Source of the DNA: Candidatus Tenderia electrophaga
GTDB taxonomy: Bacteria > Pseudomonadota > Gammaproteobacteria > Tenderiales > Tenderiaceae
NCBI GenBank assembly: GCA_001447805.1
Contig: CP013100.1
Location: 1 to 42,766, forward strand
DNA length: 42,766 nucleotides
Reading direction: 5' to 3'
Numbering within the stretch: the first letter of the stretch is position 1; each line of letters begins with the position of its first letter. Below the pieces are notes generated by a model. The model made no database searches and was not told where the DNA came from. It saw only the letters and a list, made by a program, of their open reading frames with translations. A program made the translations under genes and the position numbers. Below are positions 1 through 36,096 of this stretch, piece after piece.

Positions 1-421
1 AGAGTTCACCAAACCGACCGTGGATCTCGCAAATACCGTCCGCGCTTACGCTGCGCCCGCGCACTCCGCCGCCGTCGATCCATTGCTGAACCGCGATGTG
101 TGCTTTGGCTTCGAGTTGCAGGTTCCGTTTTTCCGCGTTGGTGCTGTAATCGTTTTTCAGGGCGCGTTCGATGTCGACCGGGTGGGTATCGTGGCCTTCG
201 ATTAGGTTGCTGTAATAACAGTTCATTGCCCGGACCAGCTCCGCCAGGGATGTCAGGATGCCTTCCGGGAGGCTCCGGCGAAATCCTGCGGAATGCGCCG
301 CCAACTCGACCGCAAGATCGGCGAGCTCTCCCCTATCGCGAGAACCTTCGGAGATCCTCATAGGTTCCATCAAAGATACGGGCTCACCCCTGTCCAGGGG
401 TGTGCTATTGTCCGGCTTCAT
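1..421 (-). CDS. Fic family protein, N-terminal part (runs off the window)
   Basis: Reading the minus strand from the ATG at 421-419 gives about 140 open codons up to the window edge. The translation contains NCYYSNLIEGHDTHPVDIER followed by a region ending AKAHIAVQQWID. This is the N-terminal helical part of Fic/DOC proteins. The SNLIEG stretch matches the (S/T)xxxE(G/N) inhibitory helix, which in class II Fic enzymes blocks ATP binding until relieved. Fic enzymes usually AMPylate target proteins; the catalytic HPFxxGNGR motif would lie beyond the window and cannot be checked. Plus-strand ORFs here are shadows. An upstream ATG pair at about 445 is out of frame and hits a stop. The gene is transcribed out of the window, with the AT-rich stretch at 440-540 as its probable promoter region. 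Fic genes occur as toxins and in defence islands, but its role here is open. Confidence 0.8.
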   Translation of the reverse strand, partial: MKPDNSTPLDRGEPVSLMEPMRISEGSRDRGELADLAVELAAHSAGFRRSLPEGILTSLAELVRAMNCYYSNLIEGHDTHPVDIERALKNDYSTNAEKRNLQLEAKAHIAVQQWIDGGGVRGRSVSADGICEIHGRFGEL

Positions 422-878
422 GGCCGCTTCTTTGTCCGCATCATAACTAGTCATAAATTACATAATATCATAAAGATATGTAGAAATTATGTCTATTATT
501 TGCGCTATTGTGGCCGCTTTCAGGGCCGGTTTGATAATATAACGAACAAGGTTGTTAAGAGATCTCTCTCATCCCGTCTGGGGCCGAGCCATGGTGCCGG
601 AGGCGACGTGGTGGGGTGCCGTGGTCGAGCGGTACAGGTGTCGTCTGTCGGGATTCGTCATTCGATCCAACCGGTAGCGCGTCGTAACTGCCGGGGCGAG
701 GTATGCATTGCTTTTTGCCTACTTCACTTCCATTTGGGCGTCGTCTCCTATATGTCTGCTTCCGGCCAGGAGCAGACATTCGTTGCACACTGGGTCACAG
801 GATAAAGCTCAATATTTACTTTTGTGCCCGATGCAGAGCTTTATGGGCTCAGCGCCAGACTACGACCTAAGGAGTGCT
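422..878. other. Gene-free stretch upstream of the Fic gene
   Basis: About 450 bases in which I see no convincing gene. Bases 440-540 are AT-rich and lie just upstream of the Fic start, so they probably hold its promoter. Bases 590-790 are more GC-rich and end in the perfect inverted repeat at 752-779. A minus-strand ORF at 555-788 starts inside that repeat with MSAPGRKQT. This kind of peptide is commonly annotated but is really the translation of a dispersed palindromic repeat, so I do not call it a gene. Confidence 0.5.
752..779. repeat. Dispersed palindromic repeat, copy A
   Basis: The arms ATGTCTGCT (752-760) and AGCAGACAT (771-779) are perfect 9-base inverted repeats around a 10-base GC-rich loop. 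Related sequences occur at 4801-4822 and 9573-9592. Elements reading TGTCTGCTTTGGGTCG are scattered between genes in many proteobacteria and yield spurious ORFs starting MSAxGxKQT. Function is unknown. The palindrome could form a transcript hairpin or be a non-autonomous mobile repeat. Confidence 0.65.
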
Positions 879-1910
879 CTATTTATTTAATAGCTCGAAG
901 CTATTTAAATTTTTGTATCCTATTTCTTTAAGTATTTTTTTGGGGAAATCTGAATTGAAAGTAAAACCAACGTTGTTCCCACTTCCCTGAATAGAACAAT
1001 ATTTAGTAAATTCTTCCCAATTAGACAAAAAACCTGTAGCAGTTAATGATGGGTGGTTATTTATTCTAATGAAGTGAAATACCCGTCTGCTTATCCAGGG
1101 TATATCCTTTGTGCTTATACTATTAGGGCGCTCACTTAAACTAATAAGAGGTTCTACAACATGGTACTTTTCCGACCCAGCCCCAGAACCCCCGAATTCA
1201 ACGATTCTTAGAACCATTAGATCTCCAATGTACTTCACTTTTATTATGCGCTTCCAAAATCCGAATCTTACCGACGTATTTGATTCATGAGTTGCCTCCC
1301 AGAAAACAATAAGATAATCATCCAGTTTCTCTAAAGCGGCTCCATTAGCATAGAGAAACTCAAGTGGACCACCCCAAGAGCTTTTAAGTCCCCATCCGGA
1401 AATATAATTGGAGGAAAAGGTTGTAAAGAAAGTTGATAACACATGATAAAACGCGTTATCACTGTTTGTGCCAACACTTATCGGATATATTTTCTTAAAG
1501 TCGCTACTCATACGTTCTAATAAGTCGACGATCTCACATCCACCTGACCCCCCGTAATTTACATTCTCTAGGGGGTGAAAAGAATCAGACTTCATACTCC
1601 AGTTTCCTAAAGTTAAACTGGCACCATCCAAGCTTAATAAGTTTAACTGTAAGTCAATATCCTTGTTCCTCAAGTCTTCGGCAAACTTATCAATAACTTG
1701 GAATACATCCCCATGGCTCTCGTTTTGTATAACAAGTTCTTGCAATAAAGACTTGGCAGCGTCACTTGATCCACTCCACGAAAGAGCTAAATTATTATTT
1801 AAAAGATGTATTTTTTGTTTTATTGACTTAAAGCTTTCTGGAAGGCTAATTAAGCTATCTGCCATTACGTAAGGCCTATTCTCATATAAAAATTGAACTA
1901 TGAACGTCAC
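879..1910 (-). CDS. Unknown protein with a proteasome/Ntn-hydrolase-like N-terminus
   Basis: 343 aa with a GTG start; AT-rich. The protein starts MTFIVQFLYENRPYVMADSL and continues with KIHLLNNNLALSWSGSSDAA. This resembles the opening of proteasome beta/HslV subunits: a Thr directly after Met as possible N-terminal nucleophile, an Asp about 16 residues later (MADS), a Lys-containing strand (QKIHLL, K33) and a Gly turn (SWSGS). After removal of Met1, T2, D18, K33 and G47 fall at 1, 17, 32 and 46, close to the proteasome positions Thr1, Asp17, Lys33 and Gly47. The rest has no motif I recognise. At 343 aa it is longer than HslV (about 175 aa), so it carries an extra C-terminal domain. It stands alone on the minus strand downstream of the WGR/KfrA pair. 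The fold is inferred from pattern only and proteolysis is not shown. Confidence 0.55.
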   Translation of the reverse strand: MTFIVQFLYENRPYVMADSLISLPESFKSIKQKIHLLNNNLALSWSGSSDAAKSLLQELVIQNESHGDVFQVIDKFAEDLRNKDIDLQLNLLSLDGASLTLGNWSMKSDSFHPLENVNYGGSGGCEIVDLLERMSSDFKKIYPISVGTNSDNAFYHVLSTFFTTFSSNYISGWGLKSSWGGPLEFLYANGAALEKLDDYLIVFWEATHESNTSVRFGFWKRIIKVKYIGDLMVLRIVEFGGSGAGSEKYHVVEPLISLSERPNSISTKDIPWISRRVFHFIRINNHPSLTATGFLSNWEEFTKYCSIQGSGNNVGFTFNSDFPKKILKEIGYKNLNSFELLNK

Positions 1911-4861: not shown

Positions 4862-5749
4862 TTAATCTTTTGGCTTAGCTTTAACACTCAAATACCGTTC
4901 GACATTTGCCTCGTGCCTTTTGTTATAAAGACTACAACAATAGCAGCCGTTATTCTCACCCATCTGTACTTTCGTGATCGATTTTAAATGACCCCGATAA
5001 TTCAGATAGCGCGAGCTATTTTTAGGGTCGGTAATGTGCAACTTAAATTCCTGAACACCAAGGGAAGCAATGATTCCGTTTAAATCCACCACAGACGGGC
5101 CAGAAGCCGCATCAAGGCTTTCTTTATCTACACCATAAACCTTTGCTTCATTCTCTAATTGCGTTTCATCGGCTAAGTATCGCCTGACCTCGGTTTGGTC
5201 TAGACCATCACCCATACAATGCAAACATCCATTTCTTTCTTTGACGACCGCAACCCGGCCACCAAATGTCCCATCTTCAAACACTTCACTTGCAAGATCA
5301 ATGTAAGTAACACCATAGGCAATACTCAACTCGTTAAGAATAGAGCGTGCACCATCACTGTCGAGGCAGCCCACAACAATATCAGCCCACTTTATGGCGT
5401 CGAACGCTTCACGAGACTCCAGCTTGTTTTTAATAAGTTTTATATTCACTTCTGGATCTATGCCTTTTGCTACGCGCTCGGCAACCATCACTTTGTCAAC
5501 TCCGGTGCCTTTGTCAGCATCAAAATCGCTATGCAAGAACCCTATATACCGATTCCGATTTGTTTCTGAAAAAGTCTCATGCTCAACCACAGTAATATCT
5601 CTTACGCCGAGTAAACAAAGTTGCGGTAACATGAATGTTCCCAGCCCGCCGAAACCGACTAGCACTACCTTGGTGGATTGAATTTTTTCTTGGCCTTGTA
5701 AGCCAAAAATTGCAATCTGCCTGTTAAATCGTTCATTTGCTGATGACAT
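4862..5749 (-). CDS. ThiF/E1-like ubiquitin-activating enzyme homologue
   Basis: 295 aa, start ATG with a strong SD (AGGAGG). A Rossmann nucleotide-binding loop VVLVGFGGLGTFMLPQLCLL (residues about 28-47, GxGGxG) is followed by VVEHETFSETNRNR, the region where E1/ThiF/MoeB proteins hold their ATP ligands, and ADIVVGCLDSDGAR near 130. Cys pairs CLHC (about 177) and CYCC near the C-terminus look like the zinc site of the family. E1-like proteins adenylate the C-terminus of a ubiquitin-like protein using ATP. Here the partner would be the multi-ubiquitin-like protein encoded two genes upstream. The start overlaps the JAMM gene by 17 bases; it is the last gene of the operon. Confidence 0.88.
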   Translation of the reverse strand: MSSANERFNRQIAIFGLQGQEKIQSTKVVLVGFGGLGTFMLPQLCLLGVRDITVVEHETFSETNRNRYIGFLHSDFDADKGTGVDKVMVAERVAKGIDPEVNIKLIKNKLESREAFDAIKWADIVVGCLDSDGARSILNELSIAYGVTYIDLASEVFEDGTFGGRVAVVKERNGCLHCMGDGLDQTEVRRYLADETQLENEAKVYGVDKESLDAASGPSVVDLNGIIASLGVQEFKLHITDPKNSSRYLNYRGHLKSITKVQMGENNGCYCCSLYNKRHEANVERYLSVKAKPKD

Positions 5750-6266
5750 GCCTACCTCCTAATGTCATACCTGTTGGCTTCAATACCTTTTTATCCACGC
5801 GTAATGCCGATAGGCATTCTGGTGAATTAGGGTCTTTCTGCCAAACGAGTGAATCAAAACCACGTGGTGAAACGACAATTGCTGCATAGGGCCTTCCAGG
5901 CAACCTCCACCACATGTGCGGAACAGTTTCTTCGAATCCATTCATGTCAGCGAGAGAGAAAGCAGCAGACCACGGGCTATCAAAAGGATGAGAATGCAAC
6001 TCGATGAGTGCCGTATTCGTTTGGTGCGCCTTTTTGATGATGGAAATCCGACTCTCGTCCGACAACTCGATATAGTCATCGTATTGCGCGATGAAGCCAT
6101 CTTGCCCAACAAGATAATAGTCCTGAGCTTTGAGCAACAAAGTTTGATTGTCTTCGTGGAATTCGGCAAAAATGAAAGCAGCGGATTCCTGGGTGGCACC
6201 TTCGGGTAGAAGGTGGCCCCAGATAACATCATGCTGTTTTTCGGTAAGGTCAATAAAGAATTGCAT
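5733..6266 (-). CDS. JAMM/MPN (JAB) metalloprotease of a ubiquitin-like system
   Basis: 177 aa. The JAMM signature is visible: LHSHP at 90-94 (H91, H93), S104 and D107 in FSLADMNG, with a possible catalytic Glu in FAEFHED near 35. JAMM proteases are zinc isopeptidases that trim or remove ubiquitin-like modifiers. In bacterial operons they pair with E1 and E2 proteins. The spacing from HSHP to the Ser (nine residues) is a little longer than the canonical motif. The ATG overlaps the TAA of the multi-ubiquitin gene by one base (TAATG), so translation is coupled. Confidence 0.85.
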   Translation of the reverse strand: MQFFIDLTEKQHDVIWGHLLPEGATQESAAFIFAEFHEDNQTLLLKAQDYYLVGQDGFIAQYDDYIELSDESRISIIKKAHQTNTALIELHSHPFDSPWSAAFSLADMNGFEETVPHMWWRLPGRPYAAIVVSPRGFDSLVWQKDPNSPECLSALRVDKKVLKPTGMTLGGRHVISK

Positions 6267-7309
6267 TATTCACCCTCCAGCAAGCGGTTGCGGAAACTTC
6301 TCGCCCAACCCCACAGGTTATCGCCGGTAGTAACGTCTGCTCCAGGACGCCAGTTTTCGACGTCCCATGATGCAAAACGCCAGCTTCCTTCGAATGGCGG
6401 TGGATGCTGCGGATTGTTGAGCATCAAAACCCGATCACCGAATTTAACGCCTGACGGTATATAAAAGCCGTAAGGCTTAGGAACTGGATGGCCAGCAGTG
6501 ACACTAAACACGACTGATATCACTTCAGGTGAAAGGGGTGAAGGGAGCGAATAATCTTCGATTTTGAACCAATGAAGATTTTTAACTTCCTTGTATTCCA
6601 CATGTGCAAAGTTTTTCTGTAAGAGCAGAACTTCTTTTCCGATACGGGAATTCTCATCAAATCCACGCTTGAAACGCTGTTTCTTACAAAAGTTATGTCC
6701 GGGCTTTAGCTTGATAACTTCACCGGATGCTAGCGGACGCTCATTTTGGTCTTTGTCCACTTCCACAGCGCCTTGGCTTGCATCCCAGCCACCGAGTTGA
6801 ATAATTTCTTCTGTTGTAATCGTCTTCTTCGACCACTCAAACACCTTGCCTTCAATGCAAATTGAGTATTTGGCCCCAACCCTGAACTGTTCAATTCCTT
6901 CAATGCTAAGGTTAACTACGTCAGAATCCTCAATGAGCTTGTCTTCACCGGATTTGGTTTTCTGCCAAATGCCAACTTCATCCGGCTCATCAACCTCAGT
7001 AAGACGCTTAATGGCTCGTCCTGTAATGTAATCTGAGCCCCATTCACGCGGCTTTCCATTGACTTCCAGCCGATAGAGCACATCTGCTCTGAAAGTACGG
7101 AACTTCTCGATTCCGGTTCGTTGCAAATCGACCACTTCCGTAGGACGGATGCTTTCCATGTCTCCATCCTCAAGAAGAAGATAGATAGCGAATTCTCCCG
7201 GTGGCTGCTTGCCAGCCATAAAAAGTAACTCATTGCCGGAAATCGCGGCTTTGTCAGTCTCATAGACATCGCCATTAATATCTACTTGATACAATACGTC
7301 TACGTTCAT
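6266..7309 (-). CDS. Multi-ubiquitin-like protein fused to an E2-like domain
   Basis: 347 aa. Three tandem ubiquitin-like beta-grasp repeats are seen at about 5-72, 76-144 and 146-205. Each has the pattern Y..-(I/V)-(N/E)-G-K-x-(Y/W/E) ... I.....L ... (V)VDL/VVNL...GIE(K/Q)FR. The C-terminal region (about 220-345), with VTAGHPVPKPYGFYIP and FEGSWRFASWDVENWRPG, looks like the prokaryotic E2 family E. The only Cys near this region is C208, before the fold; I see none where a canonical E2 active-site Cys would be. The domain may therefore be catalytically degenerate or use another residue. The neighbouring JAMM and E1 genes support a ubiquitin-like conjugation pathway, probably in defence. Confidence 0.85.
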   Translation of the reverse strand: MNVDVLYQVDINGDVYETDKAAISGNELLFMAGKQPPGEFAIYLLLEDGDMESIRPTEVVDLQRTGIEKFRTFRADVLYRLEVNGKPREWGSDYITGRAIKRLTEVDEPDEVGIWQKTKSGEDKLIEDSDVVNLSIEGIEQFRVGAKYSICIEGKVFEWSKKTITTEEIIQLGGWDASQGAVEVDKDQNERPLASGEVIKLKPGHNFCKKQRFKRGFDENSRIGKEVLLLQKNFAHVEYKEVKNLHWFKIEDYSLPSPLSPEVISVVFSVTAGHPVPKPYGFYIPSGVKFGDRVLMLNNPQHPPPFEGSWRFASWDVENWRPGADVTTGDNLWGWARSFRNRLLEGE

Positions 7310-7450: not shown

Positions 7451-8368
7451 TCACAATTCAAGCCGATAATTTCCTTTCCCATCGTTTTTAATTACTTCCC
7501 CCCAAGCTTGGTTAGTTTTCCCCCTGCTTCTGAAAACTTGTAATAGCTTGCTTTGGGTAGAATTAATTTCTGCAAGAATCTCATCTTGGTGTCGAGCGCC
7601 TCCTGCATTGTACAAAAATTCAACAGCCTCAGCCTGCTTCTTTGTAAACTGATACTGCTTGCCATTCACAACTAGACTTCTAAAGCCACCGCTAAAGCCA
7701 TCCTGACTAATACTGCCTCCCATCTTCCCAGCGAGAAGAAAAGTATTCAGCTCAAAATCATCCTTATCCCATTTTATGGCTTCATTAAGCCTCCCTAACT
7801 GGTTTTGGTTTGGCAGCTCCAAATGATCCGGGAGATTCTGGTCTAAAGCAATTACTAACGCCGGGTTAGAGGATTTATGATGTATTTTCAGATAATTTTT
7901 AAGCGCATCAAGTACAACGCCACTCTTCATATCCCTTACAACCAGGATGTTAGTGTTTTGCTTTTCAATTCTATGCTGGCCTAACGCCCAGATTTTACCT
8001 TCCAAAATAACCTTTGGAGTATGCCGATCTGCTATGTCTAACGCGTCCATAACCCTTCGCAGGAGCCATTCGAAGTTTACTTGATATAGGTTTATATCCT
8101 CATCATTAACGGCAACCCAACCATCCGCAGCAGAAAAATACATATTTTTGCCGTCCCTGCGCTGTATATCTGCAAAAAATTCACAGTCTCCGTCGAACAC
8201 TTCAACGGATTTAAGTATTTTAAAATGAGTGAGAATGCCACTCTCCACCAATTCCTGAAATAAATCGCCAAACTCCTCTTTGGCAAGCTTTTCAATTATA
8301 GCTGCATCCTGTGTCTCACTAATCTTCAGCAATTTCTCTATTGTGGTTCTCTGCACCCCATTGCTCAT
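7451..8368 (-). CDS. Unrecognised protein linked to the ubiquitin-like operon
   Basis: 305 aa, AT-rich, no signal peptide or membrane segment. I do not recognise the family. Residues about 115-185 (PKVILEGKIWALG, then NILVVRD and NPALVIAL) look like an alternating alpha/beta region. The last 70 residues, from QYQFTKKQAEAVEFLYNAGG through ILAEINSTQSKLLQVFRSRG to GNYRLEL, have the helix-helix-helix-hairpin look of a winged-helix DNA-binding domain. Its ATG overlaps the stop of the 391-aa gene (TAATG), so the two are co-translated. They precede the multi-ubiquitin gene by 141 bases on the same strand. It may be a regulator or a substrate/adaptor of the conjugation system. Confidence 0.6.
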   Translation of the reverse strand: MSNGVQRTTIEKLLKISETQDAAIIEKLAKEEFGDLFQELVESGILTHFKILKSVEVFDGDCEFFADIQRRDGKNMYFSAADGWVAVNDEDINLYQVNFEWLLRRVMDALDIADRHTPKVILEGKIWALGQHRIEKQNTNILVVRDMKSGVVLDALKNYLKIHHKSSNPALVIALDQNLPDHLELPNQNQLGRLNEAIKWDKDDFELNTFLLAGKMGGSISQDGFSGGFRSLVVNGKQYQFTKKQAEAVEFLYNAGGARHQDEILAEINSTQSKLLQVFRSRGKTNQAWGEVIKNDGKGNYRLEL

Positions 8369-9543
8369 TATATAATCTCAACCAATTCCCACTTCTCAAG
8401 GTATTTGTCGCCTATTAACTTTTCTTTTTGGGACTTGCTCTTTAGATCACACCCGTTTGGCTCTCGGATTTTCACATGCAGTATCTTTCCTCTCCTGCTT
8501 TCTTCATCGGGCATAAATCTAATGCTGATTCTTACTTGTTTTAGTTTAAAACCAGAATTTAGCGGGTCATTCTCGCCAAAATATTCCTTTGAAATGTCGT
8601 AAATACTACGCTCTTCCTTTGTAGCAACATCCAACGTGACAGTATTGTAGCTATTTGGTTGAGCAACTTTGAGCATCGTGACATCAACTGACTCAATCCC
8701 ATCATCTGGATCAAAAGATAGCGTTCTCTGCTTTAGCAAGCTTTGAATGGTGTAGCGTTTTAAGGGTATTTTTTCCCCATCAATAGGGGATTTCAGAAGC
8801 GTCTCTGAAAATATTTTTGGAATTGCTTTTCTGTTTTCCTTGCCTTCAACGACAACCTCGATATGTCCACTTTCAGGCTCGTAAGTCAATGCAACTTCTT
8901 TAACGGGCCGAACAATATTTGAAACCAGACTCTCATCTTCAAAAGCAAGCTGAGTGCTAGGCAAGTCTTCCCTATAGACCATTATTTGTATGAGTTCTAT
9001 TTGGCGATCATCACCCTCTGAACGCGTTCTTTCAAATATGTCTATGTGAACATTTCCGACCGCCCGAAACAACTCCATTATTTTGTTCTTGAAGGCCAAA
9101 ACATCAATATCACTTTTACTGACTGATATATTTTTAGGGCCTATGAATGCGTCCCATATACGCCCATTTCGGCCTGTGTCTGTGTACCAACAGTCCTCAA
9201 CTTGCCTGAACCGCGAAGCATCCTTTAAAAATAACCATAGAACTCGATCATGCTCATTCTCCAGGTCATAGTATTCTTGCAGCTCACTATCACTCACGGA
9301 ATGCTTTAAGATGCTTTGGCCAAGCTCATCCGTTAACGCATTTATTCGTTCTGAATCTGATTTGAGTAGAGCTAATTTATCTCCTACTGCCGCTTCGGCA
9401 ATTTGTAATAATAATTTCCTAACAGCAATTTCGTCGTCATCCCAATCGACTTTCTGCACTAGATCAGTGTTATTGGCCTCGAAATACTTTTGAAGCGACT
9501 TCAATGGTGTTTTCTTTATAAACTTTGATATATCAGTACCCAT
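8368..9543 (-). CDS. Unrecognised 391-aa protein, first gene of the ubiquitin-like cluster
   Basis: 391 aa, acidic and soluble-looking, AT-rich; no domain recognised. The N-terminal third is helical and rich in D/E/L (WDDDEIAVRKLLLQIAEAA). The middle and C-terminal parts are beta-rich, with segments such as LIQIMVYREDLPS and KRYTIQSLLKQRTLSFDPDD, ending in KWELVEII. It has no Walker, nuclease or metal motif I can point to. It starts the minus-strand cluster and is coupled to the 305-aa gene. Its place next to the E1/E2/JAMM genes suggests a target, sensor or effector for the modifier, but nothing in the sequence proves that. Confidence 0.6.
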   Translation of the reverse strand: MGTDISKFIKKTPLKSLQKYFEANNTDLVQKVDWDDDEIAVRKLLLQIAEAAVGDKLALLKSDSERINALTDELGQSILKHSVSDSELQEYYDLENEHDRVLWLFLKDASRFRQVEDCWYTDTGRNGRIWDAFIGPKNISVSKSDIDVLAFKNKIMELFRAVGNVHIDIFERTRSEGDDRQIELIQIMVYREDLPSTQLAFEDESLVSNIVRPVKEVALTYEPESGHIEVVVEGKENRKAIPKIFSETLLKSPIDGEKIPLKRYTIQSLLKQRTLSFDPDDGIESVDVTMLKVAQPNSYNTVTLDVATKEERSIYDISKEYFGENDPLNSGFKLKQVRISIRFMPDEESRRGKILHVKIREPNGCDLKSKSQKEKLIGDKYLEKWELVEII

Positions 9544-9724: not shown

Positions 9725-10666
9725 CTAATTATCCGATGAAGGCATTTGCGAGGCACTAAGTACAATCAATCCAAGAGTGAATAACAGCGCCGAGACCGGT
9801 TCAGGCACTGAGTAGGCGCTGATCCGCCAAATCTTATCTGCATCTCCCACGAACATATTGCTAACGCCGTCGAACACGAAATCGTTCGGCCCGATGAAGG
9901 GTGCATCGCCCTTGCCTGCGAAGCCGGTGGCGAAGGCCTCGAGCACGGTTTGATCATTCAGGAACAACAGAGCGCCTAAGTTGACGTCGCTAAGAAACAA
10001 CCGCCCGCCCAAGCCGATGCCGGTGAACGTGCCGCCGAGCGGGGTGACTTGCCCTAGCTGCGTCTGGTTGCCCAAGGCGTCTGCGCCGTAGACCGTGCCG
10101 CTGCCGTGGTCGATGAAATACATCTGGCCGGAGTCGGAAAAGGAGATCCCGTAGGGCCCGTTCGGAGCACTCAGACCGGAAAGAAATACCGAATCATTGC
10201 CTAAATTGTCGATGCGCGACATGGTGCCGTCGCCGCTGTTGCTGACGAAGAATTCGCCTCCCAGAGCCTCGATGGAGGTGGGGAAGGAAAAGCCCGAGGC
10301 GAACAGTGACGTGGAGCCGTCGGCTAATACCTCAAAGACGTCGCCTCGGCTGGACGTGCTGGAGGCGACATACAGCCGTCCATCCGCGTCGAAGGCAAGG
10401 TCGGTGGGCTTGTCTATGCCGGTGGCATAAGTGTGGAGGACGGCAGGGCCGTTGATCTTGAGGATCCGCCCACCATCATAATCGGCGGCGTACAGACGGC
10501 CCTGGTCGTCGAGGGTTAAGCCGGTGACGGCCCCCACGCCTTGGGCAAAGAGTTCCACGGCATAACCGTCAGGAACGACCGGCACTGCAACCGCCGCGCC
10601 GGGCATCAGAAACAAACAGGCGATGAGCGCCCGGCACCCGCGATGCATCCTATCGATTAAACCCAT
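9725..10666 (-). CDS. NHL/SMP-30-like beta-propeller protein with PEP-CTERM tail, copy 1
   Basis: 313 aa. An N-terminal signal peptide (ALIACLFLMPGAAVAVP) is followed by repeated propeller blades such as GLTLDDQGRLYAADYDGGRI, PTDLAFDADGRLYVASSTS and NDFVFDGVSNMFVGDADKIW. The C-terminus is a PEP-CTERM sorting signal: VPEP, a hydrophobic helix (SALLFTLGLIVLSAS) and a short tail with little positive charge. PEP-CTERM proteins are processed by exosortase and linked to the cell surface or exopolysaccharide. No exosortase gene is in the window. A near-identical copy lies at 31393-32442. It follows the 302-aa gene on the same strand. Confidence 0.85.
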   Translation of the reverse strand: MGLIDRMHRGCRALIACLFLMPGAAVAVPVVPDGYAVELFAQGVGAVTGLTLDDQGRLYAADYDGGRILKINGPAVLHTYATGIDKPTDLAFDADGRLYVASSTSSRGDVFEVLADGSTSLFASGFSFPTSIEALGGEFFVSNSGDGTMSRIDNLGNDSVFLSGLSAPNGPYGISFSDSGQMYFIDHGSGTVYGADALGNQTQLGQVTPLGGTFTGIGLGGRLFLSDVNLGALLFLNDQTVLEAFATGFAGKGDAPFIGPNDFVFDGVSNMFVGDADKIWRISAYSVPEPVSALLFTLGLIVLSASQMPSSDN

Positions 10667-11457
10667 GAATCCCCCAGATATGCGTTTATGTTACCCACGG
10701 GGTTATATAGGCGCAACCGCATGGCGCGATTTATTGTGCCTCGGACATGTTTATACAGTCGGCGCGGAATGGGTTAATGGCCCTTTCTGCGCTCAATTCT
10801 CGCAATCATTCTCCACAGCGATGCTGAAATGATCGTCTCGTTTCCCGGCAAGCCGTCCTTGCGAAAACGCTTGCCCCATAGCAAAAACGTCACCTCCTTG
10901 TCAGAGGCCAGTGTGGACATCCCTTCGACCGCAATCCGAACTGGCCTTCCGCGCTGTTCGACAACGATGATATCCCCGACGGTGACGCCCAATACATCCT
11001 GGCACAGGCTGGCCATCTCTGCCTCGAGTTCCTGTTCCCAGCGTTCCAAGTCGGCATCCACCCGTCGCCAGGCTTGTCTAACCGATGCGAGCGAACGTGC
11101 GTCGTTCCGAGAAAACCAGAGATGATCAAAGAGCGCGAGGCGCTCATTCGGCATCGAGCGTTCCATGTCAATGGCCGCACTATACAACGCATCGTAAATC
11201 GCCCGTGCCTGCATAAGCGCCCGGCAGCGATCCGCATAAGGCCTGAGCCAGGTACGGCCTATGCGGCCGGGCAGTCGCGCCGGATTGCGCGGCATCAGCT
11301 CGATCGGGCAGATGTCATTGAGCATAAAGGGCTTGGTCTCGAACCGATGCGTGGTCCAGTCGTTGCGCACTACGCACAGCAACCAAAGCTCATGGGGCGA
11401 AACGCATAACTGGACTCGGGATTGACCGCTCGTGCCCGGCATATAGACACTACCGAT
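9731..11457. repeat. 1.73 kb duplicated cassette, copy 1
   Basis: Bases 9731-11457 align end to end with 31507-33235 in the same orientation, at roughly 90% identity judged by eye. The cassette contains the PEP-CTERM gene and most of the 302-aa gene, including the gap between them. Homology starts at ATCCGATGAA near the PEP-CTERM stop and ends at ACCGAT inside the 302-aa gene. No terminal inverted repeats or transposase are visible, so this is a segmental duplication or two related acquisitions rather than an insertion sequence. Confidence 0.85.
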
Positions 11458-11682
11458 CGACCAGGCGTGCTCCGTGGCTGCCAGTTCCGCGGTGACATAC
11501 GCCAGCCCGTTCTCGCGCGCAAGGTCGGCAAGGTGGGCAAGCCGCCCCAGAAAATCAGCCGAGGCGCGAACAGTGATCGCTTGGCCGCCGCCCTCCTCCG
11601 CCCTGCGTCGAAAAATAAGTATTTGGTCCTTTGCCAGCGGCTGCAGTTTGCCGAGTTTACTCACGCTATTGCTCGGAGCCAC
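10774..11682 (-). CDS. Unknown 302-aa protein with a frameshifted C-terminus
   Basis: Soluble, Arg/Ala/Leu-rich protein; family not recognised. Segments include NDWTTHRFETKPFMLNDICP, WLRPYADRCRALMQARAIYD and EVTFLLWGKRFRKDGLPG, with EVTFLLWGKRFRKDG near the end looking like a beta hairpin. Compared with the second copy at 32570, this one lacks one base near 10850 (GGGAAACGAG versus GGGGAAGCGGG). The last about 20 residues are therefore read in another frame (NETIISASL instead of KRDxHFSIAVENDC) and the ORF ends at 10774. With the base restored it would stop at about 10793. This may be a real mutation or a sequencing error in a G run. It precedes the PEP-CTERM gene. Confidence 0.65.
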   Translation of the reverse strand: MAPSNSVSKLGKLQPLAKDQILIFRRRAEEGGGQAITVRASADFLGRLAHLADLARENGLAYVTAELAATEHAWSIGSVYMPGTSGQSRVQLCVSPHELWLLCVVRNDWTTHRFETKPFMLNDICPIELMPRNPARLPGRIGRTWLRPYADRCRALMQARAIYDALYSAAIDMERSMPNERLALFDHLWFSRNDARSLASVRQAWRRVDADLERWEQELEAEMASLCQDVLGVTVGDIIVVEQRGRPVRIAVEGMSTLASDKEVTFLLWGKRFRKDGLPGNETIISASLWRMIARIERRKGH

Positions 11683-12875: not shown

Positions 12876-13073
12876 ATGGCTACCGGCAAGACTACCACAC
12901 TGAGCTTCCGCATCGAGCCGGGTCTGAAAGAGGCATTGCGTGAGGCTGCTAATCGTGAACACCGATCGATCGCCAATATGGTGGAAGTGCTCATTCTTGA
13001 ATACTGCGAACATCACGGCATAGCAGTTCCGACACGCGCTGCCACCAGGAGCGATGGGGGCAAGAAGGGGTGA
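12876..13073 (+). CDS. Ribbon-helix-helix protein heading the BREX-like operon
   Basis: 65 aa, ATG preceded by GGGAGGAG. The sequence TTTLSFRIEPGLKEALREAA, then REHRSIANMVEVLILEYC, is a ribbon-helix-helix (Arc/CopG-like) DNA-binding domain. A beta strand (TTLSFRI) is followed by two helices with the turn at HRSIANM. The gene lies 40 bases upstream of the DUF499 ATPase on the same strand, so it is probably the autoregulator of this operon. No toxin gene pairs with it. Confidence 0.82.
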   Translation: MATGKTTTLSFRIEPGLKEALREAANREHRSIANMVEVLILEYCEHHGIAVPTRAATRSDGGKKG

Positions 13074-13113
13074 GCGCCATCGTGGGTGTAACAGAACACT
13101 TCCGGAGACTTTC

Positions 13114-15840
13114 ATGCTTGGATTAAGCCTGCGCGACGAATTCAAGGGCCGCCGTCTTAAAGGCACAGCCATTGAGCTGACAAACAAGAACAACACAGGC
13201 GCCACGCAGGTCTCGGCGTCCGATTTTCTGCGCATCACCTACCCATCCCACGATCTGCTGAAGGCCATTGAAGCCGCTGGCCCTGATCAGGGTCGCCCCG
13301 TCACGCTCAAAGGCGAAAGGGGGCAGGGCAAATCCCATTTGATGGGGGTTCTCTACCATGCGTTTACCGATCCTTCTGCGACGAAGGATTGGCTGAATAA
13401 CTGGTCGCACACCCTGGGTGATGCCAAGATCGGCCAGATTCCACTGCGTGGGGGCATGCACGTCATCAGTGAAAGCCTGCACCGGCAGCGCTACAAGTTC
13501 TTATGGGATCTTGTCTTCGATAACCACCCGAACGGTAATTACTGTCGCGGAAAATGGGAGGCGCTCGGCGACAAGAAACCCGATGTGCCAAGCGATGAGA
13601 TACTACTGGAACTGTTCAAGCACACGCCAACGGCGCTGATTCTGGATGAATTCCAGACCTGGTATGACGGCTTGACCAACACGAAACAGTATCCATGGCG
13701 CACCTGGGCCTTCAACTTCATTCAGGTGCTTTCCGAGATTGCCATGGAGTACCCGGAGTACCTGGTGCTGGTGGTTTCCGTAAGGAACGGCAATACCGAT
13801 GCGTTCCAGCAAATTCAACGAGTGAATCCCGTCATCGTCGATTTCAAAGGCCCTTCGGCCAAGACCGATCGCTTGCGGCTGTTGCTGCACCGCTTGTTCG
13901 AAAATCGGATTCAGGTGGACGCCACGGCCATTCAGTCGTTGGTTGAAACCCACGTCAACGAGTACTTCCGTCTCAAAAATATTGCCCCTGCGGAGCAGGA
14001 GAGGATTCGCGGGGAATTCATTGAGGCCTGGCCGTATGCACCTCACCTCATGGACCTGCTGGAAGATCAGGTGTTGATCGCCACCAGTGCGCAGGGTACG
14101 CGCGACCTGATCCGAATTCTCGCGGACCTGTTCAAGTACAATGGGGATAAGCAGCCGATCCTGACGGCCGCGGATTTCCGCCTTGATGATGAACACAGCG
14201 GGATTACGGCACTGCTCGACTCGGTGGCCAACCAGCATCACGCCAAGCTGCGTGAAAAGGCGCTACGCAATCTCGAAGCGGTCAGCGACGCCATCGCCGG
14301 AAGCGGCCACAAGCTTCCCCACCTTGAAGAGATCATCGGGGCCTTATGGCTACGCTCACTGGCAGAGGTCAATCAGGCTGGCGCTGACCGAGACACACTT
14401 CATGTCGATGTGACCCGCGACCAGCCGGTGGATGACAATGCCTTTCAAGTCGAACTGACCACCATCGTGGAAAACAGCTTTAACATCCACGAAGACGGTA
14501 ACCGATTCATTTTCAGAGAAGAAGAAAACCCCCAGGCCAAGCTTATTGCCAGCGCGCGCAATGACAAGCTGTTTCAGGATGACGAGGACCGCTGGCACCT
14601 TGCGAAGGAAACACGCTATGTCCTGGAGGGTGGCGGGGACGTGGAGCTGCCCTACCGGGTCATCGTTTTGCCCCAGGCGTGGAAGAATAACCCATGGGAA
14701 AAGCTGGACGACAGTGAGGCGCCAGCGAACTGGAGTAACCGTATTCCGGTTGTTGTCCTGCCTGAATCACCGGCCAATACAGAGGCGGCACTGGGTGAAT
14801 GGCTGCGGGATAACCTGCAAACCAACCGCAATGTGGTTCGTTTTCTTCTGCCCAGAGACGGATCCAGCCATCTGTTTCTGGACCGTGACCTTCTAGTGTT
14901 GGCTCGCTGTGTCTATCTGGCCGAGCGCTGGAAGAAGGAGAATCCGGAGTACGGCCGGCTGCAGACCAAATACCAGAAGGAGTTGCGCGATATTCTCAAG
15001 TCGCGATTTGATCGCTTCGCCATCATTTCGAACTGGAATTTCCAGAAGCCGCAGAACTGTCGCTTTGCCATCGAGAGCCACAAGGCCGAAGGCGCCCGGA
15101 TTCCTGATGCCATCGACAAGAGCATCCGAGAGAACCTCTTCATACCTGAAGACTTCGATGCGTTCATCCTGGCGGCAGCACCGAACAACGAACCCATCAG
15201 CAAACTGCTCCGGGAGCTGCGAGAGCCCCGCCCGGGCGGCGAGGACTGCATTCCCTGGCTTGGCGAAACGCTCGTCAAGGAACGCATCGTTCGCCTGTGC
15301 GCTCGTGGTGAAATCGCGATCAACCTGCGCGGCATGGAGTATCTCCAGGCCCACGACGGTGAGGACGAGGAAGCTGCGTTCAAGCGGATGCGCGGCAAGC
15401 TCGGCACGGGCAAGCACCTGGAAGAAACCCATGTGCTGCTTCCGCAGAACGTGCCGGCCACCGGTGGGGTAACCCAACCAGGTGCTGTCCAGCCGGCGCC
15501 TCCCGGTCCCGGTGGGGTGATTCAACCGGGAGGCGGTCCTGGCGTTGTCGCTGAGCCACCACAGCCGGGCACGCCTGGTGAGCCAGGAGCGCCCGGTCAG
15601 CCGACCCCTGGAGGTATCTTTGGCGGTGGTGGGGCTTTTACGCCTCTATCTGCGTCGACAACATCGTCGTTGAATCTTCTGGGCAAGGTCGAGCAATGGG
15701 GCATCGGCACCGGCACGCAGCTGCGCGGGCTGACGCTCCGGGTGGATCAGTTGACCGGGGCACAACTCCAGGAACTGATCCGCAAATTGCCGGATGGCAT
15801 GACTTACGCGCTGGACCTGGAGAAGGAGGACCCGCAATGA
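13114..15840 (+). CDS. DUF499 ATPase (BrxC/PglY-like)
   Basis: 908 aa from the ATG at 13114 (SD CCGGAG); the 20 codons upstream in the same frame overlap the RHH gene and look untranslated. Walker A GERGQGKSHL is at 67-76, and Walker B is TALILDEFQTWYDG near 172-185. These fit the DUF499 family of large P-loop ATPases that act with PglZ proteins in BREX/Pgl systems (BrxC, PglY). Residues about 790-860 form a Pro/Gly-rich, collagen-like linker leading to a last small domain (WGIGTGTQLRGLTLRVDQL). The stop overlaps the PglZ start by 4 bases (ATGA). At 908 aa it is shorter than typical BrxC (about 1,200 aa). Confidence 0.85.
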   Translation: MLGLSLRDEFKGRRLKGTAIELTNKNNTGATQVSASDFLRITYPSHDLLKAIEAAGPDQGRPVTLKGERGQGKSHLMGVLYHAFTDPSATKDWLNNWSHTLGDAKIGQIPLRGGMHVISESLHRQRYKFLWDLVFDNHPNGNYCRGKWEALGDKKPDVPSDEILLELFKHTPTALILDEFQTWYDGLTNTKQYPWRTWAFNFIQVLSEIAMEYPEYLVLVVSVRNGNTDAFQQIQRVNPVIVDFKGPSAKTDRLRLLLHRLFENRIQVDATAIQSLVETHVNEYFRLKNIAPAEQERIRGEFIEAWPYAPHLMDLLEDQVLIATSAQGTRDLIRILADLFKYNGDKQPILTAADFRLDDEHSGITALLDSVANQHHAKLREKALRNLEAVSDAIAGSGHKLPHLEEIIGALWLRSLAEVNQAGADRDTLHVDVTRDQPVDDNAFQVELTTIVENSFNIHEDGNRFIFREEENPQAKLIASARNDKLFQDDEDRWHLAKETRYVLEGGGDVELPYRVIVLPQAWKNNPWEKLDDSEAPANWSNRIPVVVLPESPANTEAALGEWLRDNLQTNRNVVRFLLPRDGSSHLFLDRDLLVLARCVYLAERWKKENPEYGRLQTKYQKELRDILKSRFDRFAIISNWNFQKPQNCRFAIESHKAEGARIPDAIDKSIRENLFIPEDFDAFILAAAPNNEPISKLLRELREPRPGGEDCIPWLGETLVKERIVRLCARGEIAINLRGMEYLQAHDGEDEEAAFKRMRGKLGTGKHLEETHVLLPQNVPATGGVTQPGAVQPAPPGPGGVIQPGGGPGVVAEPPQPGTPGEPGAPGQPTPGGIFGGGGAFTPLSASTTSSLNLLGKVEQWGIGTGTQLRGLTLRVDQLTGAQLQELIRKLPDGMTYALDLEKEDPQ

Positions 15841-16832
15841 CCTTGCCGCTCCAAATGGTGCAGACGCTGCAGAGTGCCGAGCCGAACGATGCCTGGGCCG
15901 CCGTATTTGAACATGCCTGGGAAGTCTGCTCGCAAAGCCTTGCGCCGGGACAAGCCGTCGCGGAGGTGCTGAAGCGTGACCGCAGCCTGGCGGATGTGGA
16001 TCTCTATCTGGCTACAGCGGGTTGGGATTTGTGGTCACACTTCGAGGAAGTCGTCCCACGCACCTCACAGGAGCTGGCTGGCTGGTGGGCCAACCAGGCA
16101 CCCGGTAGAGCAGTCCTGATTCTGGATGCCCTCTCAATGCGCGAGGCGCCCTGGATTTTGCACCAAGCGGAGGAGCGAGGATTTATCGTGCATCAGGCCC
16201 GCCCCACCGGGGCCGAGCTGCCCGCGGATACCACGCCTTTCGCCAAGGCCCTGGGTTTTGGCCAGCGCTCCGCCCTTGGCAATAACGGGGCGGGGGGCAG
16301 CCATGCCTTCCCCGGTGCCCGCGCGGAGTCGGTGGACATCGCCTGGGCAGACTGCGCGGCGCTGATCGGCTCCGAACCGGACTGGGTGTTCTGGCACCAC
16401 TGGCCGGATCATCGCCTGCACGATCACGACGACCCAGGCAAGGGACTGCAAACGCTGACCGAGGAAGTAGAGGAACACCTCAGCGGTGACGCCTTCTGGT
16501 CATTGGTCGAGCGGCTGGCCACCGGGCGCCGTCTCATCATTACGGCTGACCATGGCTATGCCGCCAGTGGGCAGTTCATCGACAGCAATGCCGAGCAGTC
16601 GGACTATCTCAAAGGGCGCTACAAAAGCGGCCGGGCCATTCCCGGCAATGATCCGGCCGGCGCCTGGGTGCCGCCGATTGACCTGGCCATCGAAAGCGCG
16701 CATGGGCGGCATCTCTATGTCAACGGCCGGCGCAAATGGAAGAGCCAGGGCGGTTATCCAACTCTCACCCACGGCGGCTTGAGTGTGCTGGAGGTCGCCG
16801 TGCCGTTTATCGAACTCAGCAGGAAGAAATAG
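15837..16832 (+). CDS. pglZ: Short PglZ-domain protein
   Basis: 331 aa. Alkaline-phosphatase-superfamily features of PglZ are visible: AVLILDALSMREAP (D97, S100) as the first metal/nucleophile region and LIITADHGYAASG (near residues 232-244) as the DHG metal motif. A final PTLTHGGLSVLEVAVPF matches the conserved THGG end of PglZ. It is about half the length of PglZ in classic BREX systems, which have 600-900 aa, and lacks the extra N- and C-terminal domains. PglZ is a metal-dependent hydrolase-like partner of the DUF499 ATPase in phage exclusion. The start overlaps the ATPase gene, and the methylase follows after one base. Confidence 0.88.
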   Translation: MTLPLQMVQTLQSAEPNDAWAAVFEHAWEVCSQSLAPGQAVAEVLKRDRSLADVDLYLATAGWDLWSHFEEVVPRTSQELAGWWANQAPGRAVLILDALSMREAPWILHQAEERGFIVHQARPTGAELPADTTPFAKALGFGQRSALGNNGAGGSHAFPGARAESVDIAWADCAALIGSEPDWVFWHHWPDHRLHDHDDPGKGLQTLTEEVEEHLSGDAFWSLVERLATGRRLIITADHGYAASGQFIDSNAEQSDYLKGRYKSGRAIPGNDPAGAWVPPIDLAIESAHGRHLYVNGRRKWKSQGGYPTLTHGGLSVLEVAVPFIELSRKK

Positions 16833-16833
16833 T

Positions 16834-19800
16834 ATGTCGGACGACAAGCCTTGGAAAGCCAGAGGCATGAACAAGGCGGATTGGCTGGCCGAGGAAGTGG
16901 CCAAGGCGGTCGGCGCCGGCAAGACCTGGGAGTGTGAGACCGTCGACTTCTCTGATCCCGACCGGCCGGCGACCTGCATCGAGGTGGATTTCCCGATTAT
17001 CCCGATCAATCAGATCGCGGCCATAGAGGGGAACGCCGGCAAGCCCATCTACCAGATGTCCAAGTGGTGGGCACGTCGCCGTAGCAGCGTGTTTCGCTCC
17101 ATGTTGCTGGCCTCCGCCATCAAGGCGCCGGATGACCCGGCCGAAGCCGCCAAGCTGGTCTGGGACTGCTATTACGGCAACCACCAGAGAAAAGGCGCCT
17201 TCAAGCAATTGAAGGTCGCCGACATCTTCATGGGCGGTGGCACCACCGTCGTGGAAGGTTCCCGCCTTGGCATGCAGATGGTGGGCAACGAGCTCAACCC
17301 GGTGGCGTGGTTCGTGGTCAAAAATGAGTTGGCCCAAGTGGATAAAGCCGAGGTCGAAGCTTTGCTGGCGGAGATCGAGGCCGAAGTCAAACCCCAGATC
17401 ATGCCCTTCTACGCCTGCGAATGCCCGCGCGGCCACAAGGGGCAGTGGACCCGCATCAGCACCGGCGAGACCATGGGCGAGGACTTCGATCCCCTGACAT
17501 TGTCGCCGCAGGAGCGCAAGGACTACCGCTACCACGGCCCGGAAATCATCTACAGCTTCTGGGCCAAGCACGGCCCCTGCCAGGTGACAGGGTGCGGTCA
17601 CCGTACCCCGATCATGACCAGCCCCGTCATGGCGGTGAAAACCCTTTCGGTGAAGACCTGGTCTCGCACCTGCTCCCATTGCGGTGAACAGTACGATCTG
17701 GAAGAACGGGATGCGCGCATGGCGCCGGCGGTTTCGCTGGTGGTGGCGGAGACGGAACGCCCTTTCGCCGTCGCCAGGCTCAACCAATACAGCGGCGAGC
17801 CGGAGAGTGCCGACTGCCCCTGCTGTGGCAAGACCGAGACATTCGGCAAGCTGGGTAAGGGCAAGCGCAAGAAGGTGGAGCTGTCACTGCTGGTGCATCC
17901 CCAGTGGCTGGAGGGCGAGGCCTCCCGGGACGAGCAGGGGCACCCCTACGGTGGCAGCGTTGAAGACCCGATAGACGCGACCGTGCGCTGGAACCAGGCC
18001 AGGGCGCAGACCTGCAAGCTGATCGAGGTGCGCGGCAAGCTGCCCGAATCCATCACCTGTCCGGATACCGGCACTGTCATTCTGACCGGCAACGAAGGGG
18101 GCACGGTTCCCAAGCGCAGCAATTACGCCTGCGGCGCCTGCGGCACGGTTCAGGATGTCCTTCGAACGGTCAAGGCTTCCGGGAAAACGGGGCCGGTAGC
18201 CATCTACGGCCATCAGGGTTACTGCCCACACTGTTATGAGGAAGGACAGACCTACGGTGGGCGCTTCTTTATCGATGGGAGCGATCCTTCCGCTTTCGAT
18301 TCAGCCTGCAAGGAATGGGAGGCACGCAAGGATTCAGACTTGGAGGACTATTGGCCGCGTAGTGAACTGCCCTTCGGTTTCATGACCCACAAGCTCAATG
18401 GCGGCATCCCGAACCACGGGTTTACCCATTGGTGGAAGATGTTCAATCCCCGGCAGTTGTTGGTTCTATGCCAGCTCCTGAAGGCGATCAATATTGGCGG
18501 GGAGCATTCAGATCCAGTCCGAGACTTTGTGCTGGGCGCCTTTCAGAACTTCCTACGCAACCAAAACATGTTTTCGTTCTGGCATAAGAAGTTAGACAAG
18601 TTGGCGCCGGCTCTTTCCAATAGCAATTTTCACCCCAAGAACAATGTTGTTGAGGTTGGCGTTTTCCCTCCAATGGGATACGGCCCGTGGTCTTCCACAG
18701 TAGAGGTGCTTCACAAAGCTCACAACTGGCGTATTAACCCTTGGGAGCTTGTGCACAACGAGCGGCTTTCCACGCACAACGAGAGTCTGTCTGAATTTGT
18801 TGCCGGCAATAGTGAAAAAGTCGAGTGTGGCGATCCGATACAAGATGCCGAGGTGTTCTGCGCTTCCTCAACCGACCTCAGCATGCTGAGCTCGGGGAGT
18901 CACGACTTGGTTGTGACCGACCCACCCTTCGGCGGCTTGCTGCATTATTCCGAGCTTTCCGATTTCTTCTATGTCTGGCTGCGCTTGGCGCTGAAAGATC
19001 GTTACCCTGAATATTTCGGCCCGGAGTACACACCCAAAACGCTGGAGGCGGTAGCGAATCGTGCTCGGCATCCGGGGCGGGACGAAGAAACGGGCCTGGA
19101 GAACGCGGATCGCTTCTATCAGCGCCTGCTCACCGAATGTTGGCGCGAGGCGGGACGGATTCTCAAGCCGGGCGGGCTGCTGAGCTTTACCTTCCACCAC
19201 AGTGAAGATGCACCCTGGGTGTCCGTGCTCGAATCGCTGTTCGATGCCGGTTTCTACCTGGAGGCCACCTATCCCATCCGCAGCGATGAAACCAAGGGCG
19301 CGGGCGAGTTCGGCTCCCGCAAGATCGAATACGACATCATTCATGTCTGCCGAAAGCGCATCGAGGACCCCAAGCCCATTTCCTGGGCCAAGCTGCGGCG
19401 GCAGGTACTGCGCGATGTGCGTGATCTGCAAGACCTGCTGGAGCACCACCAGGAGGAAGGGCTGCCGGAAGCCGATGTACAGGTGATTCGTCGTGGCAAG
19501 GCGCTGGAGTATTTCTCCCGCCACTATGGCCAGGTCTACAAGGACCAGGACACATCGATGACGGTGCTGGAGGCCTTGCTGGGCATCAACCAGTTGCTGG
19601 ACGAGGAGGCTGGCGGCATCAAGGAACCGCCGCCCCATAACGCCGAACCTTTCACGCGCATGTTGCTGCGCCTGTTCGATGGCATCAATCAACTGCCGCG
19701 AGACCAGTTGCAGAAATTCCTACGCGGGACGGGCATCGGGCCGTCGGATTTTGCCAGCCGGGGTTGGGTGTACGAGGAGAAGAAGATCTTTCATCTCACC

Positions 19801-20121
19801 TCGCCGCTGGAGCTGGCCCAGAGCTGGGTTGGCCGGCATCGACGGGGGATGCAGAGCGATTACGAGCAGGCCATGTTCCTGATCGGCGCCTGTTTCGAGG
19901 GCAGCGGCATCAACGCCAGCGAGACCCTGAACAACGACAATTTCAAGCCCCACCCGGCCCTGGGTGCGATCCTGACCTGGTTCAAGACCCGCGGCGCTGA
20001 TTCGCCTACCCGCAATGCGGCCACCACCGCCGCATCGCTCTATCAGTCCTGGGCGTCGCGCAATCAGGACAAGGTGAAGCAGCTCAGCCTGTTTGAACGC
20101 ATGGGCGAGGAGGAGGACTGA
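16834..20121 (+). CDS. DUF1156/COG1743 adenine-specific DNA methylase (PglXI-like)
   Basis: 1,095 aa; start ATG at 16834 preceded by AGGAAGAAA, downstream of an in-frame but unlikely ATG inside pglZ. The DUF1156 region is at about 53-95 (FPIIPINQIAAIEGNAGKPI, then KWWARRRSSVFR). SAM motif I DIFMGGGTT is at 130-138 and catalytic motif DPPF at 696-699 (VVTDPPFGGLLHYSELSDFF). Between them are several zinc-ribbon Cys pairs (CSHC, CPCC, CGAC, CPHC). This matches the COG1743 methylase used in type 3 BREX and in helicase-methylase-ATPase defence systems, marking self DNA by N6-adenine methylation. The motif order (I before IV) is that of beta/alpha-type permutations. The stop overlaps the next gene by one base. 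Confidence 0.9.
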   Translation: MSDDKPWKARGMNKADWLAEEVAKAVGAGKTWECETVDFSDPDRPATCIEVDFPIIPINQIAAIEGNAGKPIYQMSKWWARRRSSVFRSMLLASAIKAPDDPAEAAKLVWDCYYGNHQRKGAFKQLKVADIFMGGGTTVVEGSRLGMQMVGNELNPVAWFVVKNELAQVDKAEVEALLAEIEAEVKPQIMPFYACECPRGHKGQWTRISTGETMGEDFDPLTLSPQERKDYRYHGPEIIYSFWAKHGPCQVTGCGHRTPIMTSPVMAVKTLSVKTWSRTCSHCGEQYDLEERDARMAPAVSLVVAETERPFAVARLNQYSGEPESADCPCCGKTETFGKLGKGKRKKVELSLLVHPQWLEGEASRDEQGHPYGGSVEDPIDATVRWNQARAQTCKLIEVRGKLPESITCPDTGTVILTGNEGGTVPKRSNYACGACGTVQDVLRTVKASGKTGPVAIYGHQGYCPHCYEEGQTYGGRFFIDGSDPSAFDSACKEWEARKDSDLEDYWPRSELPFGFMTHKLNGGIPNHGFTHWWKMFNPRQLLVLCQLLKAINIGGEHSDPVRDFVLGAFQNFLRNQNMFSFWHKKLDKLAPALSNSNFHPKNNVVEVGVFPPMGYGPWSSTVEVLHKAHNWRINPWELVHNERLSTHNESLSEFVAGNSEKVECGDPIQDAEVFCASSTDLSMLSSGSHDLVVTDPPFGGLLHYSELSDFFYVWLRLALKDRYPEYFGPEYTPKTLEAVANRARHPGRDEETGLENADRFYQRLLTECWREAGRILKPGGLLSFTFHHSEDAPWVSVLESLFDAGFYLEATYPIRSDETKGAGEFGSRKIEYDIIHVCRKRIEDPKPISWAKLRRQVLRDVRDLQDLLEHHQEEGLPEADVQVIRRGKALEYFSRHYGQVYKDQDTSMTVLEALLGINQLLDEEAGGIKEPPPHNAEPFTRMLLRLFDGINQLPRDQLQKFLRGTGIGPSDFASRGWVYEEKKIFHLTSPLELAQSWVGRHRRGMQSDYEQAMFLIGACFEGSGINASETLNNDNFKPHPALGAILTWFKTRGADSPTRNAATTAASLYQSWASRNQDKVKQLSLFERMGEEED

Positions 20122-20642
20122 TGGTCAAGACACGCTTCAATCAAGGCTGGCCGCGTCGCGGTATCGCGCTGCTGTGGGACGCCGACATTCTCGCCGGTCT
20201 GAACGCCCCTGACGAGGTGGTGTCACTGCGTCAGTTCTTCGCCATGACCGATGACTGGCCGGATGATCTGCCTGCCGCGGACGGCGACGCCCTGGTGGTG
20301 GCGGGGCTGGAAGGCTGCCTGGATGTGCTGGCTGGCGAGGATGCCAGGGGCTGGCTGGAAACCGACCTGAAAGAGGCCTTGCTGTCGTTCCAGGACTTTT
20401 ATCAGGGGCAGGCCGGTTTGATTTTCTGGATGCCGAGCGGTCGCAATCGCATCAGCATGAAAGGGGCCAGCGAGGCCTATTACTGGCGCCACCGACATTC
20501 GGGAACGGAAGGATTACCCATCGGTCGCCTGCTGTTCTCCGGCGCCGAGAATGAGGCCGAGCGCCTGCTCAATACGGACGACCCGCATGCCGATTACGAC
20601 GGCAAGCACTGGGCGGGCTTGCACCACCCGCGGATCAGCTAG
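20121..20642 (+). CDS. Unknown 173-aa protein in the BREX-like operon
   Basis: Acidic, soluble-looking protein starting MVKTRFNQGWPRRGIALLWD, with alternating strands and helices (DALVVAGLEGCLDVLAGED, AGLIFWMPSGRNRISMKG). No Walker motif, nuclease motif or membrane helix is visible, and it is not a recognisable BrxA, BrxB or BrxF. The TGATG overlap with the methylase and the 13-base gap to the helicase mean it is co-translated with them. It is therefore a likely core component, perhaps a specificity or assembly factor. Confidence 0.65.
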   Translation: MVKTRFNQGWPRRGIALLWDADILAGLNAPDEVVSLRQFFAMTDDWPDDLPAADGDALVVAGLEGCLDVLAGEDARGWLETDLKEALLSFQDFYQGQAGLIFWMPSGRNRISMKGASEAYYWRHRHSGTEGLPIGRLLFSGAENEAERLLNTDDPHADYDGKHWAGLHHPRIS

Positions 20643-20655
20643 GGAGGTGCGATCG

Positions 20656-36087: not shown

Positions 36088-36096
36088 AACAAGACC

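Follow-up and report, generated by a model that had tools for sequence, protein, structure and literature searches.

The question raised by positions 879 to 1910 is what kind of protein is encoded there, and what a lone gene of this kind does on a plasmid rich in defence genes. The window, meaning the whole stretch of DNA analysed (42,766 nucleotides), begins at base 1 and ends at base 42766 of a contig of 106,908 bases. Family alignment and structure prediction make it very probable that the product is a catalytically competent Ntn hydrolase without a propeptide, a member of the proteasome-like family that belongs to neither the 20S nor the HslV family. This assignment is built on the open reading frame (ORF), the predicted fold and an alignment of relatives.

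The gene is a minus-strand ORF running from 1910 to 879, with a GTG start and a 343-aa product that begins MTFIVQF, so the reading frame and the threonine after methionine given in the preliminary description were both borne out. The open frame comprises only 347 codons. A TGA stop lies four codons before the GTG, which forces threonine into position 2 whichever ordinary start is used. Only one plus-strand ORF of at least 60 aa (69 aa) lies wholly within 879-1910. GC content is 0.367 in the gene versus 0.496 in its flanks.

Structure prediction placed the protein among proteasome subunits. AlphaFold2 reached a pLDDT of 61.2 and a pTM of 0.68 with a 7-row alignment, and 49.6 and 0.56 with a 4-row alignment; confidence in the model is moderate overall and poor beyond residue 298. 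Both models run strand-strand, strands, helix-helix, strands, helix-helix, strand-strand, which is the order of a proteasome subunit, and the 7-row model has a two-sheet, four-helix topology in which a sheet core of S1-S11 is accompanied by H1-H4 (with H1 and H2 predicted at residues 49-62 and 66-83). For each model, the best 50 rows of a Foldseek search against the PDB were all proteasome chains. VIA-align 2 matched the 7-row model to proteasome subunits with a Z of 12.3 and an rmsd of 3.1 over 176 residues, and the 4-row model gave the same outcome (Z 12.2). In the superpositions of the 7-row model, residue 2 coincides with the first residue of numerous beta chains, including 1pma_1, 1iru_H and 5t0c_AN. 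HslV, Anbu and connectase were not among the best 50 VIA-align matches of either model, which excludes none of them. When predicted viral proteins were compared, phage proteasome/HslV-like proteins were the best of the structural matches that carry a name.

Nine relatives at eight distinct loci, with 17-22% identity, were found by tblastn of plasmid records, genome searches and a genome-contig scan. They are encoded on an Oscillatoria nigro-viridis plasmid (L002), in a Mariprofundus metagenome-assembled genome (MAG; L003/L012, one locus with a 100% identical match), in Marinicaulis flavus (L013), on Rhizobium plasmids as two near-identical genes (L007 and L008), and in four genomes of the window's phylum (L006 in G063, L031 in G788, L032 in G839 and L030 in G855). 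Together with the window protein they form the ten rows of alignment A8, two of which are 99% identical.

In this alignment, only ten query positions are invariant, namely M1, T2, D18, K33, W45, G47, G121, G123, G180 and P254. Four of these had been named beforehand in the preliminary description, and all four are the same in 10/10 rows: Thr2 (codon at 1905..1907, minus strand, as are all those that follow), which would become the N-terminal nucleophile once methionine is removed; Asp18 (1857..1859), equivalent to Asp17 of proteasome beta subunits; Lys33 (1812..1814), equivalent to their Lys33; and Gly47 (1770..1772), equivalent to the oxyanion-hole glycine. The chance of finding the four among nine non-Met invariant columns placed at random is P ~2e-7. 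This value errs on the optimistic side, as similarity was the basis on which the relatives were collected and one pair of rows shares 99% identity. The proposed proteasome-like spacing stood in part: after Met removal the threonine and aspartate match Thr1 and Asp17, whereas the lysine and glycine, then at 32 and 46, are one short of proteasome numbering. With the alpha-beta-beta-alpha topology predicted and Thr2 conserved throughout, the earlier proposal of a proteasome fold outside the HslV and 20S families has gained considerably, and both checks suggested for it, structure comparison and an alignment of homologues, came out in its favour.

Met-Thr is the first in-frame start or the annotated start in six of ten rows (the window protein, L002, L013, L030, L031 and L032); for L003/L012, L006, L007 and L008, the Met-Thr start was chosen despite earlier in-frame starts or a different annotated start. 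We note that the RefSeq start of the Rhizobium genes (L007:7998-9083 and L008:7998-9083) lies 72 residues too late, so that the catalytic Thr, Asp and Lys are omitted from the annotated protein.

Searched on its own, the window protein had no match in Pfam, NCBIfam, PADLOC or the PDB (for PADLOC-DB 2.0.0, 0 families at E<=0.001), and two PHROGs matches with E of 0.3-0.36 were treated as chance. Searching the PDB with profile A1, built from 3 rows, returned 18 matches at E<=10, of which 15 were to proteasome chains (the best with an E of 0.18) and three to phosphosulfolactate synthase. With the 10-row profile A8, all 18 matches at E<=10 were proteasome or HslV chains, with a best E of only 0.005; they cover the stretch from Lys33 to Gly47, within which the lysine is matched to proteasome chains, and the helix after it. 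None of the ten members matches PF00227 or any other Pfam family even at E<=10. Compared by hhalign with profiles of close relatives of HslV (from 10 sequences) and of Anbu (from 3), the family reached probabilities of 1.1 and 0.3 respectively, which column-shuffled controls equalled; this is weak evidence against a relationship, excluding nothing, because the templates were narrow (Neff ~1.2).

Proteasome alpha subunits share the fold yet are inactive, and the family could on that precedent consist of catalytically dead scaffolds or binding proteins. We consider this highly improbable, as there is no variation at Thr2, Asp18, Lys33 or Gly47 in a family that has otherwise diverged almost throughout. 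The survival of four catalytic residues at ~20% identity argues strongly for catalysis. The auxiliary residues of the active site nevertheless seem to differ from those of proteasome beta subunits: the 10-row alignment shows no conserved Asp or Ser immediately ahead of the Gly-Gly pair at G180, the region in which beta subunits have Asp166 and Ser169. A further motif, Gly121-Ser122-Gly123 (1542..1550), has both glycines invariant and Ser or Thr in the middle in nine rows (Val in one), and presumably resembles the Gly-Ser-Gly around Ser129 of beta subunits.

Sequence alone cannot tell peptide hydrolysis, ligation and small-amide hydrolysis apart, and two of the alternatives to a peptide hydrolase turn on where the family departs from proteasome subunits. 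The first departure is the stretch that separates the catalytic Asp from the catalytic Lys and appears to be the S3/S4 site; it comprises 14 residues in the window protein, close to the spacing of proteasome beta subunits, versus 36-43 in the other nine rows (eight loci). In archaeal connectase, this site carries a two-helix specificity insert, and helices H1/H2 are absent (PMC8665760). The insertion at eight of nine loci, apparently at connectase's own insert site, would suit a protein ligase or very specific transpeptidase of that kind, in which the acyl intermediate on Thr would be passed to an amine rather than to water; connectase is also a lone enzyme, and no partner unfoldase was seen here. 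However, the window protein lacks the insert, and H1/H2 are predicted in it, so that for this member a ligase appears unlikely.

The second departure is the C-terminal part, in which 162 residues follow the Gly-Gly pair. Many Ntn hydrolases act on small amides, and a part of this length could form a pocket for a small molecule, which would favour an amidohydrolase that does not act on protein. The diversity of the Ntn clan (PMC8665760) is in keeping with such a substrate. Against it, the structural and sequence matches, among those listed, are proteasome subunits and HslV and not other Ntn clans, and we hold an amidohydrolase of this type to be rather unlikely too.

The family is rare. With profile queries, members turned up in 3 of the 398 genomes sampled from the phylum, 4 of 385 in the class of G063, 1 of 369 in the window's class (the window genome itself) and 1 of 78 in the class of the Mariprofundus MAG (G296). 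As a single query, the window protein gave hits in 1 of 37 relatives (itself only) and in 2 of 299 genomes, and the Rhizobium protein in 1 of 199 genomes; these genome samples overlap, and the counts are not additive. Of two genome-contig scans, the first yielded none and the second two loci, one already known. Viral contigs scanned with the window protein, A1 and P0001 contained no relative, nor did a phage collection queried with the window protein. Queried with L013, the same collection gave a single 95-residue match (E 0.04), to a Lactobacillus phage structural protein, which was disregarded.

Family members occur sporadically, as AT-rich lone genes. At all nine loci measured, the gene's GC content was below that of its flanks, by 0.108 to 0.303, a pattern in keeping with horizontal transfer. 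A PF00227 gene was present elsewhere in each of the seven whole host genomes that were searched. In the window genome there are only two PF00227 matches, both on the chromosome, which we take by motif to be HslV and Anbu; no alpha subunit was among the PF00227 matches. No alpha subunit, AAA+ partner or HslU was found beside the window gene, and the earlier description of the protein as lone is therefore accurate in the sense that no such partner adjoins it, with HslV and Anbu located elsewhere in the genome.

The contig itself is a plasmid, as it encodes ParA, ParB, KfrA and a TrbI-like protein (below its cut-off). It is very probably circular, because joining its ends restores a 415-aa reading frame, Fic-like by eye, that covers window positions 1-454 and the contig end. 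It is probably also conjugative; this label is an inference, since the other transfer-like ORFs on the contig had no Pfam match. The nearest neighbours of the window gene are a KfrA-like gene and the Fic-like gene. All are on the minus strand, but an operon is doubtful, as 183 bases separate the window gene from a 96-aa ORF adjoining the KfrA gene and 424 bases separate it from the Fic-like gene.

Several other regions of the window carry defence-related genes or bracket them. An ATPase, a PglZ-like protein, a DUF1156-type methyltransferase and an SNF2 helicase are encoded at 13054-23418 (plus strand), forming a BREX/DISARM-like defence cluster. Genes for a cysteine desulfurase (DndA/IscS-like), a 316-aa ORF, a 1131-aa ATPase and a PAPS-reductase-like protein lie at 34760-41282, which looks to us like a DNA phosphorothioation (Ssp/Dnd) cluster. 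Two very similar ORF pairs in the same order (313/349-aa, secreted-looking, and 302/243-aa), at 9725-11682 and 31393-33301, bracket ~20 kb of the defence region and could be a duplication.

The preliminary description had placed the gene in a defence island and suggested a suicide protease. The first of these applies in a loose sense only: the plasmid is rich in defence genes, but the gene's immediate neighbours are KfrA-like and Fic genes, and most relatives sit among housekeeping genes. A defence or abortive-infection effector triggered by phage would accord with the several defence loci on the window plasmid and with the Oscillatoria relative, which is lodged within a type I restriction operon (L002:8001-9182), with hsdS on one side and hsdR on the other, starting one base after hsdS and overlapping hsdR. 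That gene might regulate the restriction enzyme. At the other seven loci no defence gene was recognised alongside, by product names or by eye: among the features listed, family members stand singly amid genes for transport, metabolism or repair (for L006, ~1.5 kb was viewed on each side). Eight flanking proteins from six loci, compared with PADLOC, gave a match only for UvrA, through ABC-ATPase similarity; the window protein itself had none, and no antitoxin-like neighbour was seen. Nothing specifically in favour of a suicide protease was found, and with most relatives being lone, AT-rich genes among housekeeping genes, we regard a phage-triggered effector as improbable.

A second neighbourhood of interest involves ubiquitin-like genes. 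At 4862-7309 (minus strand), genes for a multiubiquitin with three Ub-like repeats, a JAB-like protein (below the curated cut-off) and ThiF stand in a row with no E2, and constitute a bacterial ubiquitin-like module. Upstream of this operon lie a 305-aa ORF and, adjoining it, one of 391 aa (7451-9543, minus strand); neither had a match in Pfam, NCBIfam or PADLOC. Multiubiquitin/ThiF modules occur near two of nine loci, that of the window at a distance of 3 kb and that of Oscillatoria, where multiubiquitin, E2 and ThiF genes lie 5 kb upstream; a position inside a type I restriction operon occurs at one of nine. We treat both neighbourhoods as leads only. Of the nine host genomes or records, three contain PF14452 (in Marinicaulis counted genome-wide, irrespective of distance from the family gene), whereas in the phylum sample, from which the window genome was set aside, it was present in 3 of the 199 remaining genomes (Fisher one-sided p 0.001; without the window genome, 2 of 8 hosts, p 0.012), a comparison in which the control is the whole of the window's phylum, one host is a cyanobacterium, two of nine hosts are plasmid records and the second Rhizobium record is excluded. 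Given the mismatched control and mixed records, we do not accept a multiubiquitin link as shown, and mobile gene-rich regions could explain the rest. It is conceivable, at long odds, that a mobile proteasome-like protease pairs with multiubiquitin/E1 modules as a small moving ubiquitin-proteasome system acting on tagged proteins, possibly restriction subunits; if so, the window and Oscillatoria plasmids would be two instances of a ubiquitin-proteasome pair.

Taken as a whole, these observations are probably best explained by an active, stand-alone, peptide-directed threonine Ntn hydrolase that has no propeptide, works without an AAA+ partner and has moved horizontally. Host methionine aminopeptidase would strip Met1 and expose Thr2, so that no propeptide would be needed. 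The threonine hydroxyl would then attack an amide carbonyl, most likely that of a peptide, with its own free amino group serving as the base, while Lys33 and Asp18 would tune Thr2 and Gly47 would line the oxyanion hole. The enzyme may be monomeric or assemble in another way. As it would have no dedicated AAA+ unfoldase, its substrate is probably an unfolded or specific peptide, rather than proteins at large in general degradation. The gene would have spread by horizontal transfer as a single accessory gene.

Compared with the 20S proteasome beta subunit (PF00227), the window protein has the same predicted fold and the same active-site residues, namely the Thr at the N-terminus, the Asp, the Lys and the Gly. 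It differs in having no propeptide, no adjoining alpha gene and no PF00227 match, in its longer C-terminal part, and in the family's lack of a conserved Asp or Ser in the Asp166/Ser169 region. HslV and Anbu are also bacterial proteasome homologues, and both are present on the chromosome of the window genome as separate genes; hhalign with narrow profiles detected no similarity to either. HslV works with HslU, and no partner gene is seen at the window locus.

Fuchs, Alva and Lupas (2021) described 22 new proteasome-like families, without functional genomic context, and for most of them neither a function nor a clue from the genome is known (PMC8665760). Barrel proteases stand at one end of the proteasome-like proteins and a monomeric ligase at the other (PMC8665760). 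A 2026 JBC review cites the work of Fuchs, Alva and Lupas (PMC13022661). The kind of protein is thus already known, as a class described in 2021; this member was not found in the literature covered, though it may correspond to PMI-5 or another of the 22 families. The literature titles and abstracts listed, with most subscription journals outside their coverage, described no proteasome-like protein in defence or restriction loci. Like connectase, the window protein is a lone proteasome-like enzyme, and it differs from connectase at both distinguishing features, the S3/S4 insert and H1/H2. PMI-5 and PMI-6 also have inserts at S3/S4, that of PMI-5 predicted to be unstructured, and PMI-5 is rare (19 sequences) and restricted to proteobacteria (PMC8665760). 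By their published description, to which our comparison is limited, both resemble the eight loci with an apparent S3/S4 insert; in contrast to PMI-5, the family described here has a cyanobacterial member as well. The window protein, encoded on a plasmid, escapes the standard family libraries and yet has its catalytic set intact. This intact set, the forced N-terminal threonine and the simple genetics of a lone gene make direct expression and testing possible, and the insert beside the active site, present at eight loci and absent from the window protein, provides a natural with/without comparison of substrate specificity.
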